In this document: piece by piece, positions 11,151 through 18,785 of the stretch
How the letters are laid out: each line of letters starts with the position of its first letter
How positions within the stretch are numbered: the stretch's first letter is position 1
Origin: a virus
Reading direction: 5' to 3' (one strand)
Virus record (IMG/VR): IMGVR_UViG_3300036822_000295
Coordinates: 1 to 33,975 of that record
DNA length: 33,975 nucleotides
Made by a program: the position numbers and the translations under genes
Notes under the pieces: model-generated
Databases searched by the model: none
Told to the model about the DNA's origin: nothing
Seen by the model: only the letters and a program-made list of their open reading frames with translations

Positions 11151-11731
11151 AGTTTGTTGTGGTCGGACATCACTCCCGTCAGGTTCAGGCGACGGCACTG
11201 GCAACATCGCTTCAGGCATATTTGCTAATCGATGATGGCGACAATGGCGCCAATTGGAACCACCGTCGAGCGCTTAATTGGGCTGCTACTCAGCCATGCC
11301 GTGTTGTCATCCTTGAGGATGATGCCGAGCCAGTGCCTAACTTCATCGCAAAAATCGAAGGGTGGCTGTTGCGTTATCCTGATGCGCTGGTGAGTTTTTA
11401 TCTTGGGACAGGCCGACCACCACAGTATCAGCTAAAGATAGCTGAGCGGTTGATAGTGGCAGATAAAACCCGTGCTGACTTCATCACGTTGCCACAGCTG
11501 ATTCATGGCGTTTGCTACAGCATTCCTCAGCAGTACATTGAGCATGTGTTGTCTCGATGGGATACCCGGAAGGCCGCTGATTACGCGGTAGGTGATGCAT
11601 ACGGTGGCCAGGTGATCTATCCATGCTGGTCGTTGGTAGACCATACAGATGGAGATCCAGTAGAGAGTCATCCTGATGGGAAGCCGCGCTCTGAGCGGCG
11701 TAAGGCGTGGAGGTTGAATGGGAAAGCTTAA
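11132..11731 (+). CDS. Glycosyltransferase-like protein (GT25-like)
   Basis: The 199-residue protein has a GT-A-like layout: an initial strand IKFVVVGHHSRQ, then NWNHRRALNWA (about residues 41-51) and VVILEDDAEPVPNF (E62-D64). ILEDD is the acidic motif expected for LPS/collagen-type family 25 glycosyltransferases. A later segment with VGDAYGGQVIYPCWSLVDH fits the acceptor half. It starts at GTG with AAGGAG just upstream, overlapping the end of the previous glycosyltransferase; a second GTG three bases on is equally possible. It is probably made together with the two-domain enzyme and acts on the same acceptor. Family assignment is moderate. Confidence 0.65.
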   Translation: MVETQIKFVVVGHHSRQVQATALATSLQAYLLIDDGDNGANWNHRRALNWAATQPCRVVILEDDAEPVPNFIAKIEGWLLRYPDALVSFYLGTGRPPQYQLKIAERLIVADKTRADFITLPQLIHGVCYSIPQQYIEHVLSRWDTRKAADYAVGDAYGGQVIYPCWSLVDHTDGDPVESHPDGKPRSERRKAWRLNGKA

Positions 11732-12086
11732 AACACTTCAGCCACGACTGAAGGCGATAGACACAAGGCGGATTAAGCCAGTTTATGGCGAGCATCGACG
11801 CGTAAGCGGTAGTGCAAGGGTTAGCCTTAAGCGTCGGTTGTATGTTCGTGATAGCGGTAAGTGCTGCATGTGTTGTCGCGTAGTTGACTTGCACGACAGC
11901 GAACTAGATCACCGCATCGCCCTACAGTTTGGTGGCGACAATGAAGAGGCAAACCTCTGGACACTATGCATCGAGTGTCATGCAGGCAAATCTGCAAGAG
12001 AGGCCTCTACGAGTCAGCCAGATGAAGAAGCGTTGAAGCACTCAGTACCATCATCAATGAGAATCGACAGCGTCATCGTGATCTAA
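11718..12086 (+). CDS. HNH endonuclease associated with the terminase
   Basis: The 122-residue protein has a basic N terminus, a CCMCC zinc-type cysteine cluster (about residues 49-53), and then LDHRIALQFGGDNEEANLWTLCIECHAGKS (about 64-94). That gives the D-H pair, the N and the second C-x2-C of a zinc-stabilised HNH fold. HNH proteins next to terminase genes in cos-type phages such as HK97 assist terminase in cutting the packaging site. The gene overlaps the glycosyltransferase frame by 14 bases and is followed by a non-coding gap of about 130 bp before the small terminase gene. Confidence 0.88.
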   Translation: MGKLKTLQPRLKAIDTRRIKPVYGEHRRVSGSARVSLKRRLYVRDSGKCCMCCRVVDLHDSELDHRIALQFGGDNEEANLWTLCIECHAGKSAREASTSQPDEEALKHSVPSSMRIDSVIVI

Positions 12087-12680: not shown

Positions 12681-14342
12681 ATGGTGCAGTGGACAACAGC
12701 CTGCCCAGATTGGGAAAAGCGGCTGATTGACAGGGCATCAATAATCCCACCGCCTATTTTTGTGGACCAGGCAGAACATGCACTGGCCATTTTCAAAGAG
12801 CTTCGTGTTTCAGACTTGCCAGGAAAGCCAACCTTTGGCGAGTGCTCGGAGCCCTGGGTATTTGATTTTGTGAAGGCTATATTTGGTGGCTATGAAGCTG
12901 AAACGGGTAATCAACTAATCCGCGAATATGGCCTACTCATCAGCAAGAAAAATACAAAATCGACCATTGCCGCCGGAATTATGCTGACAGCTTTAATTCT
13001 TTGTTGGCGCGAAGATGAAGAGCATCTGATTCTGGCGCCAACGAAGGAGGTCGCCGACAACAGTTTCAAACCGGCCGCTGGCATGATCCGGGCCGATGAA
13101 GAATTGTCAGATATGTTTCAGATACAGGACCATATCAGGACGATCACCCATCGAGTGACTCGTAATACCTTGAAAGTCGTTGCAGCTGATACTGATACGG
13201 TTTCAGGTAAGAAGGCAGGGCGTATCCTCGTTGATGAACTCTGGCTTTTCGGCAAACGCCAGAACGCAGAGGCCATGTTTATGGAAGCCCTCGGCGGACA
13301 GGTATCGAGAAACGAAGGTTGGGTTATCTTTCTGACCACACAAAGCGATGATCCCCCGGCTGGGGTTTTTAAAGAAAGGTTGGATTACTGGCGCTCCGTG
13401 CGTGATGGTGAGATTAAAGATCCTAAAACGCTCGGCGTTCTCTACGAATTCCCTGAAGCGCTAGTGGAAAGCAAAGAGTATTTATTACCTGAAAACTTTT
13501 ACATCACCAATCCTAATATTGGCCGTTCGGTAAATGCTGAATGGATCGAAGATCAACTTCGCAAGAATCAGGCTAAAACTGACGGGACACTTCAGCAGTT
13601 TCTCGCCAAGCACCTAAATATAGAAATTGGGTTAAACCTACGGAGTGACCGGTGGGCTGGTGTTGATTTCTGGGAGCCTCAAGGGAAAAAGCAGGTAACG
13701 TTTGATGAGATAATGCGGCGCTGCGAGGTGGTGACTGTCGGTATCGATGGCGGTGGCCTGGATGACCTGCTGGGAATGTCAGCTGTTGGCCGTGATAAAG
13801 AAACTCGCGAATGGCTTTGCTGGTGCCACGCGTGGGCCCACGAAATTGTTTTAAAACGGCGGAAAAGTGAGGCTTCAAGGCTGCTCGATTTTGTAGCCGC
13901 TGGCGATCTCACGCTGGTTAAGCAAATTGGGCAGGACACCTTAGAGGTTGCGCTATATGTAAAACGGCTCTATATGGCTGAATTACTCGACAAGATTGGG
14001 ATTGACCCGTCAGGTGTTGGGCAAATTCTGGACGCAATGATCGAAGAGGATATCCCTGCCGACCTGGTGGTTGGTATCAGTCAGGGATGGCGCCTTGGTG
14101 GAGCAATTAAAACTACCGAGCGCAAACTTGCAGAAGGTGTGCTTGTCCACGGTAACCAGCCAATGATGGCCTGGTGTGTGGGTAACGCACGCGTAGAGCC
14201 AAAAGGCAACGCAATTCTGATCACCAAGCAGGCCAGCGGGAAGGGGAAAATAGATCCCTTGATGGCACTATTTAATGCCGTGTCTCTCATGTCGCTTAAC
14301 CCTGAAGCGAAAAAGCGGGATTACCAGGTATTTTTCATATGA
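12681..14342 (+). CDS. terL: Terminase large subunit (HK97-like)
   Basis: The 553-residue ATPase/nuclease packages DNA into the prohead. A Walker A-like segment ISKKNTKST lies at residues 87-95 and Walker B ILVDEL has D185-E186. A coupling motif VIFLTTQSDD follows at about 215-224. The nuclease domain begins with VGIDGGGLDD (D356) and ends with GKIDPLMALFNAV near residue 525. Length and motifs fit the Terminase_1 family. It begins three bases after terS and is followed by a strong terminator at 14361. Confidence 0.93.
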   Translation: MVQWTTACPDWEKRLIDRASIIPPPIFVDQAEHALAIFKELRVSDLPGKPTFGECSEPWVFDFVKAIFGGYEAETGNQLIREYGLLISKKNTKSTIAAGIMLTALILCWREDEEHLILAPTKEVADNSFKPAAGMIRADEELSDMFQIQDHIRTITHRVTRNTLKVVAADTDTVSGKKAGRILVDELWLFGKRQNAEAMFMEALGGQVSRNEGWVIFLTTQSDDPPAGVFKERLDYWRSVRDGEIKDPKTLGVLYEFPEALVESKEYLLPENFYITNPNIGRSVNAEWIEDQLRKNQAKTDGTLQQFLAKHLNIEIGLNLRSDRWAGVDFWEPQGKKQVTFDEIMRRCEVVTVGIDGGGLDDLLGMSAVGRDKETREWLCWCHAWAHEIVLKRRKSEASRLLDFVAAGDLTLVKQIGQDTLEVALYVKRLYMAELLDKIGIDPSGVGQILDAMIEEDIPADLVVGISQGWRLGGAIKTTERKLAEGVLVHGNQPMMAWCVGNARVEPKGNAILITKQASGKGKIDPLMALFNAVSLMSLNPEAKKRDYQVFFI

Positions 14343-14360
14343 CAAAAATGTCAGTTACTG

Positions 14361-14381
14361 ACCCGCTTCGGCGGGTTTTTT
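14361..14381 (+). terminator. Intrinsic terminator after terL
   Basis: ACCCGC and GCGGGT pair around TTCG and are followed by six T (14376-14381). It is nearly identical to the hairpins at 9059 and 29297. Confidence 0.9.
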
Positions 14382-14400
14382 CGTTTCAGGAGGCAAGCAA

Positions 14401-16338
14401 ATGACGCTTAATCGCGCCTGTACCCTCATGACGGTTAAATCGGTTGATGAAGATAAGCGGATTATTGTCGGCATAGCTTCAACACCATCGCCGGATCGTG
14501 ACGGAGACATTATGGAGCCAGGAGGTGCGCGGTTCGGAAATGAGAACCCATTTCTCTGGCAGCATGACAGATCACAACCCATCGGTAACTGCGCCGCAAA
14601 AAAGGTCAATGACGGCCTGCAGATTACAGCGCAGTTGGTAAAGCCAACGCCTGATATGCCATCGCAACTTATTGCCCGCCTTGATGAGGCATGGGCATCG
14701 ATTAAATCAGGGTTGGTCAAAGGTCTGTCGATTGGTTTTAAACCCATTAAATACGCATTTCTTGATGCCGGTGGCATTCATTTTTTGGAATGGGAGCTAC
14801 TGGAAGTTTCTGCCGTAACTATTCCGGCAAATGCTGAATGCAGCATCACAACAGTTAAGTCGTATGACCGCCAGTTCCTCGCCGCGTCAGGCAATGAGAA
14901 ACCCGTGGTTAAAGTAAATCCTATCGCTGGCGCTACAGCAAAAAAATCAACTGAAATTAAAGGAAAAAACATGAATATCGCTGAGCAAATCAAAAGCTTT
15001 GAAAATAAGCGTGCGGCGCTGGCAGCATCACTGAATGATGTTATGAGCAAAGCCGCTGATGAAGGTCGAACTCTGGACAGCGAAGAAACGGAGCAGTACG
15101 ACAACGTATCTTCCGAGATCAAGTCTGTTGACTCCCATCTGGGTCGCCTGCGCGATATGGAATCGAACATGGCCTCTACTGCAAAGCCAGTAGCAAAAGT
15201 AGCTAATGGCGAAATTACCATCGTTAATAACCAGGCTCCGGGCATCATCCGTGTTGAACAGAAGCTTGAAAAAGGGATCGCATTCGCCCGCTTTGCCAAA
15301 TCCTTGGCGGCGGCTAATGGCCACCGTTCGGAAGCCCTGGAGATTGCGAAGAAGCAATATCCACTCGATAACAAGCTTCATCATGTTTTGAAAGCTGCTG
15401 TTGGCGCAGGCACTACTACCGATCCTGCTTGGGCTGGCAGCTTGGTTGAATATCAGGAATATGCCAACGACTTTGTAGAATTCCTGCGACCACAGACCAT
15501 CATTGGTCGTTTCGGACAGGGTGCTATTCCATCACTTCGGCAGGTACCATTTAACATTAGAATCCCGGCGCAGACTTCAGGCGGTTCAGCAGGCTGGGTA
15601 GGCCAAGGCAAGGCTAAGCCACTGACAAAGTTTGATTTTGAGTCGATCACCTTTGGTTTCTCAAAAGTGGCAGCAATCGCAGTATTGACCGATGAACTGA
15701 TCCGTTTCTCCAATCCAGCTGCAGATGCGTTGGTTCGAAATGCGTTGGCCGAGGCTGTAATTGCTCGTCTTGATACAGACTTCATTAACCCAGCAAAAGC
15801 TGAAGTTGCCAACGTTTCACCTGCTTCCATTACGAATGGTATCACCGGCATTCCATCTACTGGTGACCCGGATGAAGATGCTGCTGCGGCCTTTGGCCAG
15901 TTTATTACGGCTAACCTGCAGCCAACTGGCGGCGTGTGGATCATGTCCAGCACTAATGCGCTGGGACTATCCATGAAAAAGAACCCTCTTGGTCAGAAAA
16001 TGTACCCAGAAATGACATTGTTGGGTGGCACTTACCAAGGTCTGCCAGCAATTGTTTCTCAATATGCGGGTACCAATCTGACCTTGGTAAATGCGCCGGA
16101 TATTTACCTAGCAGATGACGGCGGCGTTGCGGTCGATATGTCCCGTGAGGCTTCATTGGAAATGGAAAGTGAGCCAACTGGTGACAGCGTGACTCCAACC
16201 GGAACCGAAATGGTTTCTATGTTCCAGACAAATAGCGTGGCAATCCGTGCTGAACGCTGGATTAACTGGAAACGTCGCCGTACTGCAGCTGTAGCTGTCA
16301 TCACTGGTGTTAACTACGGTGCTAATCAGGGCAGCTAA
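14401..16338 (+). CDS. Prohead protease fused to HK97-fold major capsid protein
   Basis: One 645-residue frame joins two normally separate genes. Residues 1 to about 160 are an S78-type prohead protease: IVGIASTPSPDRDGDIMEP, H55 in LWQHD, S110 in VKGLSIGFKP, then WELLEVSAVTIPAN. Residues about 191-260 form a charged coiled coil like the HK97 delta/scaffold domain. About 275-645 are the HK97-fold capsid protein, ending with a strand around SVAIRAERWINWKR. In HK97-type phages the protease removes the scaffold domain and itself after shell assembly. An internal ATG with its own ribosome binding site at 14971 probably makes capsid subunits without protease. Confidence 0.9.
   Translation: MTLNRACTLMTVKSVDEDKRIIVGIASTPSPDRDGDIMEPGGARFGNENPFLWQHDRSQPIGNCAAKKVNDGLQITAQLVKPTPDMPSQLIARLDEAWASIKSGLVKGLSIGFKPIKYAFLDAGGIHFLEWELLEVSAVTIPANAECSITTVKSYDRQFLAASGNEKPVVKVNPIAGATAKKSTEIKGKNMNIAEQIKSFENKRAALAASLNDVMSKAADEGRTLDSEETEQYDNVSSEIKSVDSHLGRLRDMESNMASTAKPVAKVANGEITIVNNQAPGIIRVEQKLEKGIAFARFAKSLAAANGHRSEALEIAKKQYPLDNKLHHVLKAAVGAGTTTDPAWAGSLVEYQEYANDFVEFLRPQTIIGRFGQGAIPSLRQVPFNIRIPAQTSGGSAGWVGQGKAKPLTKFDFESITFGFSKVAAIAVLTDELIRFSNPAADALVRNALAEAVIARLDTDFINPAKAEVANVSPASITNGITGIPSTGDPDEDAAAAFGQFITANLQPTGGVWIMSSTNALGLSMKKNPLGQKMYPEMTLLGGTYQGLPAIVSQYAGTNLTLVNAPDIYLADDGGVAVDMSREASLEMESEPTGDSVTPTGTEMVSMFQTNSVAIRAERWINWKRRRTAAVAVITGVNYGANQGS
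14961..14973 (+). promoter_or_regulatory. Internal ribosome binding site and start for the capsid subunit
   Basis: AGGA at 14961-14964 stands six bases before an in-frame ATG at 14971 (codon 191 of the fusion). It lies exactly between the protease domain and the scaffold helix. Starting here gives a 455-residue protein with the size and layout of a normal HK97 capsid precursor. Confidence 0.65.
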
Positions 16339-16344
16339 TCATAC

Positions 16345-16378
16345 AAGGAGGGCGGGGGAAACCCCGCCGTTTTGCATG
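16345..16378 (+). promoter_or_regulatory. Ribosome binding site, GAAA-loop hairpin, then start codon
   Basis: AAGGAG ends at 16350. A 7-bp perfect hairpin (GGCGGGG with CCCCGCC, loop GAAA) fills 16351-16368, and ATG follows at 16376. The linear spacing is too long (25 nt), but with the hairpin folded the effective gap is seven bases. GTTTTG after the hairpin also makes a weak terminator or attenuator possible. Confidence 0.5.
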
Positions 16379-16546
16379 GCGAAAATCAGATATCTACAGC
16401 GCACACACGATTCTATCCCTGGAGATGAGAAAAGCGTGAATGATCAGTGCGCCAGAGTGCTGGTGATGCTGGGCAAAGCTGAGTACATCAGTAACAAGCG
16501 TGCTGGTGGCCGTTCAAATAATAAAAAATCTGCGGGGACTGGCTGA
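16376..16546 (+). CDS. Small hypothetical head-region protein
   Basis: A 56-residue basic protein (start AKIRYLQRTHDSIPGDEKSV) between capsid and portal. Its stop overlaps the portal start by one base (TGATG). It resembles small proteins often found beside head genes that read the capsid-portal junction, but I cannot name a family. The ATG at 16376 is chosen over an upstream frame overlapping the capsid gene, because a ribosome binding site is present upstream across a hairpin. Confidence 0.6.
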   Translation: MAKIRYLQRTHDSIPGDEKSVNDQCARVLVMLGKAEYISNKRAGGRSNNKKSAGTG

Positions 16547-17895
16547 TGTGGACTCCTTTCCGTAAAAAAGAAAAATCACTGCAACAGCCATCCGGGCAAG
16601 GGACTTGGCAGCGTATCTTTTCGTTTATCCGTGAGCCATTCGCTGGTGCATGGCAGAAGAACCTTGAGATAAATAATCAAACTGTAATTTCTTTCTATGC
16701 TGTTTTTTCATGCATTTCTTTGATAGCCAGCGATATTTCAAAGATGCCTGCAAGACATCAGCTCCGTGACTCTAATGGAGTATGGAAAGAGCAAACATCT
16801 GGTTGGGTTTCGGCGTTACTTGAGAAACCAAACACATTCCAGAATCGGATCCAGTTTTTTGAAAACTGGGTCAACTCAAAACTGTGTCATGGCAATACCT
16901 ATGTCATGAAAGTACGTGATCAGAACGGTGTCATCAAAGAGCTCAGAATCCTAGATCCGAACAAAGTTACTCCGCTGGTTGCAGATGATGGTTCTGTTTT
17001 TTATCAGATTAATCCTGACAATATTGCGGGGTTACCAACACAGGTCACTGTGCCTGCGCGAGAAATTATTCACGACCGGTTTAATTGTTTTTTCCACCCA
17101 TTAGTTGGGCTTTCTCCTCTTTATGCTGCCGGACTCGCCGCGATGCAGGGGCACCATATTCAGGAGAATTCAGCATTCTTCTTCAAAAATGGCGGTAAGC
17201 CAAGCGGAGTAATTGAGGTTCCAGGATCTCTAACTGAAGATAATGCCAAAAGTATTAAGGCTAACTGGGACACGGGTTACACCGGAGAAAACGCAGGTAA
17301 GACAGGGATACTGAGTAACGGCGCTAAATATAATCCTATATCAATGTCTGCAGCAGATGCCCAGATCGTTGAACAGCTAAAAATGACAGCCGAAATTGTC
17401 TGTTCAGTATTTCATGTTCCTTCGTACAAAGTAGGGGTAGGCGACCCACCGTCATATAACAATATTGAGGCGCTAGAGCAGCAGTATTACTCACAGTGTC
17501 TTCAGATCCTGATTGAGTCAGCCGAGCTACTGCTGGATGAAGCGCTTGGCCTATCCGGCGACGCCGGTACTGAGTTTGAAGTAAATGCGTTGCTGCGAAT
17601 GGATACAGAAAGGCGAATAAAAACGCTGGGTGAAGCAGTTAAAAACACCATCATGTCGCCAAACGAAGCCCGCCGCAAAGAGAACCTTCCACCGGTACCT
17701 GGTGGCGACTCTCTCTATCTACAGCAACAGAACTTTAGCCTTGAAGCTTTGGCCCGCCGAGATGCTTCTGATGATCCGTTCAGCAAAAATGCACCGGCGC
17801 CAACAAGCCAAGCAGCCAACGATGATAGTAAGGCGCTGTCCTATCCTGAGTTGAATATTGCCAAGGCAATGATTAGAGGATTATTAGCCAAATGA
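16546..17895 (+). CDS. Portal protein, HK97 family
   Basis: The 449-residue protein is a clear HK97-type portal. The segment YAVFSCISLIASDISKMPARHQL is at about residues 45-70, then LLEKPNTFQNRIQFFENWVNSKLCHGNTYV, LRILDPNKVTPLV, and HHIQENSAFFFKNGGKPSGVIEVPGS. The dodecameric portal sits at one head vertex, docks the terminase and later the connector. Here it lies after the capsid gene, whereas the usual order is terminase, portal, protease, capsid. It overlaps the next gene by four bases. Confidence 0.93.
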   Translation: MWTPFRKKEKSLQQPSGQGTWQRIFSFIREPFAGAWQKNLEINNQTVISFYAVFSCISLIASDISKMPARHQLRDSNGVWKEQTSGWVSALLEKPNTFQNRIQFFENWVNSKLCHGNTYVMKVRDQNGVIKELRILDPNKVTPLVADDGSVFYQINPDNIAGLPTQVTVPAREIIHDRFNCFFHPLVGLSPLYAAGLAAMQGHHIQENSAFFFKNGGKPSGVIEVPGSLTEDNAKSIKANWDTGYTGENAGKTGILSNGAKYNPISMSAADAQIVEQLKMTAEIVCSVFHVPSYKVGVGDPPSYNNIEALEQQYYSQCLQILIESAELLLDEALGLSGDAGTEFEVNALLRMDTERRIKTLGEAVKNTIMSPNEARRKENLPPVPGGDSLYLQQQNFSLEALARRDASDDPFSKNAPAPTSQAANDDSKALSYPELNIAKAMIRGLLAK

Positions 17896-18785
17896 ACGAT
17901 CGCGACTTATCCATAATCACGGTAATTACTGAGGAGTTTTCACAAGCTCTTCTAGGCCTCAAAGAGGATTTCAATAAACGGCTTGAGGATCAGCGAGAAA
18001 CCTTTACCAAAGCGGTCGCTGAATTGAAAGAGGCTTTTGCTGGCATCAGCCAAATAAGCTCAGATGAAGTCGCATTGGCGATTGAGAATGCAGTGCAAGC
18101 CATTACTCCAACTCAAATTCCTGATGTATCAAAAATGGTTTCTGAGGCTGTTGCAGCTTTACCAGTACCGGCTGATGGAAAAAGCCTTACCCCAGACGAT
18201 ATTAGACCATTGCTAAAAGAGATGGTTGAAGACGCTATTTCAGATATCCCGACACCGCGTGATGGGAAAGATGCCGATCCTGAAGCTATAAAGGCGGCGG
18301 TTTCTGACGCGCTGGCAGCGTTGCCGGAACCGGAATCACCAGCTTCCGGCGCTGATGGCCGCGATGCCTTGCAGATTGAAATATTGCCCGGCATTGACGC
18401 TGAGAAGAGTTATCCCCGTGGAACTTATGCCACGTATAGCGGTGGGCTTTGGCGTTCATTCGAAAAAACAGCTGGCATGCGCGGGTGGGAATGTGTGGTT
18501 GATGGCATATCTGCCGTTGATGTTGCCAATGACGATGAGCGGATGTTTACCGTGACAGTCACGAGAGCAAGCGGCGCATGTGAAACCAAAACGTTCGGTA
18601 TTCCAGTGATGATATATCGCGGCGTTTTCAAGGCTGAGGGTAGTTATCAGCCGGGTGACACAGTGACCTGGGGTGGTTCGCTTTGGCACTGTGATGAAAC
18701 AACAGCAGATAAACCAGGCGAGCTCGGATCCAAAGGGTGGACGCTGGCAACCAAGCGTGGGCGCGATGGTAAGGATAAAACATGA
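17892..18785 (+). CDS. Putative virion protein with coiled coil and two carbohydrate-binding-like modules
   Basis: The 297-residue protein has an N-terminal coiled coil (about 10-65). Two related segments of about 35 residues built on P-x-DGK (around PADGKSLTPDDI and PRDGKDADPEAI) come next, then ADGRDAL. Two W-rich modules then follow: SYPRGTYATYSGGLWRSF to GWECVVDG, and SYQPGDTVTWGGSLWHC to GWTLATKRG. These resemble the chitin-binding CBM5/12 pattern. The protein ends with a collagen-like GRDGKDKT. The layout suggests a trimeric fibre or decoration with glycan-binding heads. It lies between portal and connector genes with 4-nt overlaps on both sides, so it is probably a head-associated structural part. 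The function is inferred. Confidence 0.7.
   Translation: MNDRDLSIITVITEEFSQALLGLKEDFNKRLEDQRETFTKAVAELKEAFAGISQISSDEVALAIENAVQAITPTQIPDVSKMVSEAVAALPVPADGKSLTPDDIRPLLKEMVEDAISDIPTPRDGKDADPEAIKAAVSDALAALPEPESPASGADGRDALQIEILPGIDAEKSYPRGTYATYSGGLWRSFEKTAGMRGWECVVDGISAVDVANDDERMFTVTVTRASGACETKTFGIPVMIYRGVFKAEGSYQPGDTVTWGGSLWHCDETTADKPGELGSKGWTLATKRGRDGKDKT

Follow-up and report, generated by a model that had tools for sequence, protein, structure and literature searches.

The window analyzed here is a stretch of viral DNA of 33,975 nucleotides (IMG/VR record IMGVR_UViG_3300036822_000295). Its plus strand carries a frame of 645 codons without an internal stop (14401–16338), which encodes a protease, a scaffold-like segment and a capsid protein in a single chain. 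Pfam places a Peptidase_S78 domain (PF04586; E 1.6e-9, 38.6 bits against a cut-off of 21) at residues 49–153 (14545–14859), including residues H55 and S110, which are invariant in a 30-member alignment, and a Phage_capsid domain (PF05065; E 1.4e-12, 48 bits against a cut-off of 24.2) at residues 385–635 (15553–16305). The AlphaFold model of the whole fusion, built on a 27-row alignment, is of low confidence overall (mean pLDDT 58, pTM 0.29), and only its parts are reliable. It shows a beta-rich protease part, a stretch with pLDDT below 50 at residues 141–191 and then two long helices (193–220 and 227–260; 14977–15180) with local pLDDT of about 70–86, while the capsid part lies below 50 over much of its length. 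The helices are delta-domain-like by position, and a scaffold function is inferred for them. Since confidence is low over residues 141–191 and the helices begin at residue 193, codon 191 marks the boundary between the protease and the scaffold-like helices. A reading made earlier from the letters alone, of one open frame joining an S78 protease, a scaffold helix and an HK97 capsid, is borne out, the protease by Pfam and the alignment, the capsid by Pfam and the helices by the model.

Residues 1–639 of the fusion match positions 7–626 of the PHROGs profile phrog_617 (745 bits, E 1e-223), and the protein is a whole-length member of this 'major head protein' family (626 positions). Protease-capsid fusion as such is already known. 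The family is handled as one protein, the annotations that we examined mention neither an internal start nor an RNA element, and the E. coli, Salmonella and Rhizobium records examined annotate a single full-length product. The family is widespread: a locus covering at least 80% of the fusion query is found in 1,243 of 5,426 complete E. coli genomes.

Several features surround the gene. Between terL and the fusion, at 14362–14381, lies a hairpin resembling an intrinsic terminator (CCCGC-TTCG-GCGGG followed by a T run), just upstream of a strong Shine-Dalgarno (SD) sequence. The enterobacterial relatives inspected have a similar hairpin there, with an altered stem or loop; the distant ones do not. 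Rfam hits to isrB, isrK and RsmY at 14307–14381 span this hairpin, scored far under their thresholds and were rejected. A small frame between capsid and portal (16376–16543) matches phrog_829, a family of unknown function, and related phages have a 'hypothetical protein' at the equivalent place. The portal gene (16546–17895) and the gene that follows it (17892–18785) match the two ends of phrog_2271, a portal family of 859 positions, so that the one-chain portal of this family appears split over 16546–18785, with a 4-nt overlap. Further upstream, the frame at 11718–12086 corresponds in position to a gene of E. coli TST3 that precedes the one for the small terminase and is annotated as an HNH endonuclease.

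A probable internal start codon at the domain border

Positions 14959–14973 read AAAGGA-AAAAAC-ATG on the plus strand. The putative SD AAAGGA (14959–14964, with AGGA at 14961–14964) is separated by 6 nt from an in-frame ATG at codon 191 (14971–14973), which would open a nested capsid frame of 455 residues (14971–16338). The earlier note had placed an AGGA and an ATG precisely on the domain border; the sequence agrees, and the structural model puts codon 191 just before the helices.

We compared the site across 170 distinct fused coding sequences, 49–100% identical to the window and drawn from viral contigs, genome contigs, phage records and E. coli records. The codon aligned with 191 is ATG in 166, TTG in two and GTG in one, and in one homologue (L117) the ATG lies one codon earlier. 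An SD-like site with an in-frame start is present at the border in 170 of 170, and a strict SD stands at the proper distance in 168, against 179 of the 6,121 remaining in-frame start codons in these genes (2.9%; 5.8% for ATG alone); as the homologues are related, these counts are not independent trials and the percentages overstate independence. The two homologues without a strict SD carry an AGGA-type sequence, ACAGGAAAC in L091 and, farther upstream, AAGGAAAG in L117. When every aligned column is scored, start and SD coincide at the codon-191 column in 99% of the 170; the next column, at residue 538, reaches 34%, and no further column exceeds 30%. A distant fusion, L410, has a border ATG without a clear SD. 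Sequence comparison confirms that the start and SD at codon 191 are not a product of chance. A scan of SD energies by itself had not singled out the site, because Gly-rich protein motifs also give strong, SD-like energies at non-start codons; it emerged once only start codons were scored and aligned columns and codon phase were taken into account.

The way in which the SD is encoded points in the same direction. It is read as AAA GGA (Lys-Gly) in the window and AAG GAA (Lys-Glu) in E. coli phages. Lys-Gly prevails overall, Lys-Glu occurs in the E. coli clade and in Rhizobium phage RHph_X2_26, metagenomic phages have other residues, and in distant phages the SD sits in other codon phases over other residues. 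The codon for Gly188 is GGA in 80 of 80 sequences, compared with 343 of 3,782 glycine codons overall. Few parts of the protein vary as much as the linker, whose mean column entropy is 1.26 versus 0.43 overall. An SD kept at the nucleotide level within a variable peptide is the pattern expected of a translation signal. Loss of the site from fused homologues would have spoken against the earlier proposal; across the 170 it is kept.

Split relatives and a second fusion family

Searching 398 Pseudomonadota genomes with alignment A1 revealed a relative (L407, genome G396) in which the protease frame closes with TGA and a separate capsid frame follows. Its protease, used as a query, retrieved 15 viral contigs. 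In 14 of them (L429–L440, L442 and L443) the protease stops at TGA, TAA or TAG and the capsid has its own gene next to it; the remaining one, L441, is fused. In 13 contigs (L429–L440 and L443) the codon homologous to codon 191 of the window opens the capsid gene, with the N-terminus ATG/GTG-Asn-Leu/Ile-Gln-Glu/Asp-Gln aligned with MNIAEQ, and in L442 the protein opens differently, with MATLAEQI. In L407, whose capsid frame lies on the minus strand, the homologous helix is preceded at the N-terminus by a hydrophobic extension of ~50 residues that the relatives on viral contigs do not have. The capsid tree requires three changes between the fused and the split state, or two when the long-branched L406 is left out. 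A stop codon would therefore have been gained or lost repeatedly, with the start of the capsid unmoved. Judged by this alignment, the internal start is the homologue of the split relatives' own capsid gene start. The proposal that the internal ATG is a true start for capsid alone thus gains comparative support from both the conserved SD and start and the split relatives. In the open-access literature searched, no earlier description of such a capsid start within a fused protease-capsid gene came to light, which speaks only weakly for novelty.

A comparable design appears in phrog_4523, 'major head and protease protein', a distinct sequence family that is likewise a protease-capsid fusion with an SD and ATG at the domain border in most members. 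It has a match in 30 of 200 Pseudomonadota genomes. Among the 15 loci examined, of which one (L427) is truncated, eight have an aligned internal ATG with an SD (mean duplex -8.6 kcal/mol). The internal start and SD are present but displaced in L414, L417 and L420, sites are moderate in L424 and L428, and none is strong in L426. The internal-start design thus appears, from these alignments, to occur in more than one fusion family, less uniformly in phrog_4523.

A pair of RNA hairpins upstream of the internal start

The earlier note made no mention of two hairpins with GCGNNN hexaloops that precede the internal start by 90 and 45 nt on the plus strand. Among 83 distinct near relatives, the 20 seven-codon windows of the gene with the lowest synonymous change all fall within codons 157–192, with observed/expected ratios of 0.13–0.25 against a median of 1.05. 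Within this trough, RNAalifold applied to 68 sequences finds hairpin I (GCC-GCGUCA-GGC, 14881–14892) and hairpin II (GCUG-GCGCUA-CAGC, 14926–14939) and nothing else, and both are seen on comparison of homologues. A covariance model of the pair, R1, delimits a two-hairpin element at 14875–14945 (78 bits).

In the alignments, compensatory changes preserve both stems. Distant members form hairpin II with UGCCG/CGGCA, CCCG/CGGG, UACCG/CGGUA or UCCCG/CGGGA, and hairpin I with ACC/GGU or GGCC/GGCC. Across 39 diverse sequences the core cells are paired in 273 of 273 cases, the nine-pair structure has 87.5% of its cells paired compared with 16–41% in slid versions, and the covariation score is 0.211 compared with 0.099 after shuffling. 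Of 103 distinct elements, 65 have TA and 38 have CG at two third-codon positions of hairpin II, and none combines the two; as few as two events on the tree suffice to explain this wobble-pair switch. A longer stem around hairpin I (14866–14910) shows several two-sided changes, mainly in close relatives; with only 75% of its cells paired, it was left out of the element. Bases 1–3 of the loops are GCG throughout alignment A4. We considered a kissing contact between the GCG loops of hairpins I and II, which, as the loops are invariant, lies beyond the reach of a covariation test.

By rule, both hairpins are present in 164 of the 170 fused members. The element lies farther upstream in L132, hairpin I is changed or deleted in L054 and L217, and L100, L102 and L136 lack both hairpins and retain the SD and start. 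R1 gives one strong match in the window and also recognizes the pair in L407 and in 15 of the 15 contigs found with its protease. Its convincing matches across 200 genomes are limited to members of the fusion gene family, and it detects no such element in the phrog_4523 loci. Weak matches (E about 0.001–0.05) came from non-members of the family and were attributed to chance; G201, a member with 46% identity, was the exception. A scan of viral contigs for the exact hairpin pattern returned many chance matches in GC-rich DNA, and the covariance model was used in its place. Rfam has no match at 14875–14945, even at E values up to 5.

As the hairpins occur in fused and split genes alike, they would serve the capsid start or the junction mRNA and not the fusion as such. 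They may act in initiation control, processing, stability or protein binding of this mRNA. We tentatively propose, as a possibility somewhat short of even odds, an undescribed cis-acting RNA in which hexaloop hairpins about 45 nt apart at the protease/capsid junction control the amount of capsid relative to protease. Such an element would be conserved across phages ranging from those of enterobacteria to those of Rhizobium, whether the two genes are fused or split, and a phage or host factor would recognize its loops.

One gene, probably two products

We consider it probable, at about 87%, that the locus is a two-product cassette. Initiation at 14401 would give the protease-scaffold-capsid fusion, and initiation at the internal SD and ATG 14971 the scaffold-capsid protein alone, of 455 residues. 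Both products share the assembling part, so fusion subunits would co-assemble with capsid-only subunits, enter the shell and deliver the protease to the prohead interior for removal of the scaffold segment. The hairpin pair most likely affects capsid expression, through initiation or through mRNA processing or stability, and hence may act on the protease:capsid ratio too.

On the relative output of the two starts, the earlier proposal goes beyond what the sequences show. It had suggested few fusions, most capsid from the internal start and a ratio set by two ribosome binding sites. On a crude energy estimate, the upstream SD, AGGAGG at 14388–14393, 7 nt before ATG 14401, is predicted to pair more strongly (mean -9.1 versus -6.1 kcal/mol for the internal site), while the internal site is the more open (opening cost 5.5 versus 9.4), with no clear winner. 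With the stronger SD upstream, the fusion may not be rare.

That same strong upstream SD would suit a gene translated only in full length, in which the protease cleaves itself off, all capsid arises by cleavage and the SD and ATG are a relic of a formerly separate gene. The lack of a stop between the domains and the treatment of the fusion as one protein in PHROGs fit such a scheme as well. A relic would be expected to decay, however, yet the SD is retained in nearly all and the start in all of the 170 homologues and in differing codon phases, and the same codon is the gene start of the capsid in split relatives, which makes this account improbable. Less probable still is that the conservation before codon 191 reflects a site at which the mRNA is processed or stabilized, a pausing of ribosomes between the domains or a signal in the DNA itself, with the SD-like sequence incidental. 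The constrained region is indeed broader than an SD, and the hairpins are common to fused and split genes, but this would leave unexplained why an SD and start at the correct spacing persist in the hairpin-less L100, L102 and L136, and why phrog_4523, which has no hairpins, carries an SD and ATG too. The conserved region possibly has another function in addition to the internal start, not replacing it.

The two-product cassette has known counterparts. The protease genes of lambda (C/Nu3) and Mu (I/Z) each contain a further start in the same frame, which yields an abundant assembly protein with a common C-terminus. The comparison with lambda drawn in the earlier note is fair as to the way of working. 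There the nested product is scaffold only, whereas that of the window would combine scaffold and major capsid protein. In herpesvirus UL26/UL26.5, a protease is fused to an assembly protein that the virus also produces separately in large amounts, and the nested scaffold has its own promoter, in contrast to the putative internal ribosome site of the window. What sets the window apart from these nested genes is that its inner product would be the major capsid protein. The herpesvirus scaffold and protease bind the capsid protein (PMC8539031). HK97 resembles the window in its S78-type protease, its capsid family and its scaffold, which forms the N-terminal domain of the major capsid protein, but encodes protease and capsid in separate genes (PMC10275583).

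Phages of the HK97 type need far more capsid than protease, with the protease inside the shell, and a fusion with an internal capsid start would meet both needs from one gene. Because some relatives differ by a stop codon, the two-product design can be put to the test, and the hairpin pair represents a tangible and seemingly uncatalogued RNA element within a structural gene. Since the family is common and the records examined annotate the long product only, the head compositions assumed for these phages may be wrong.
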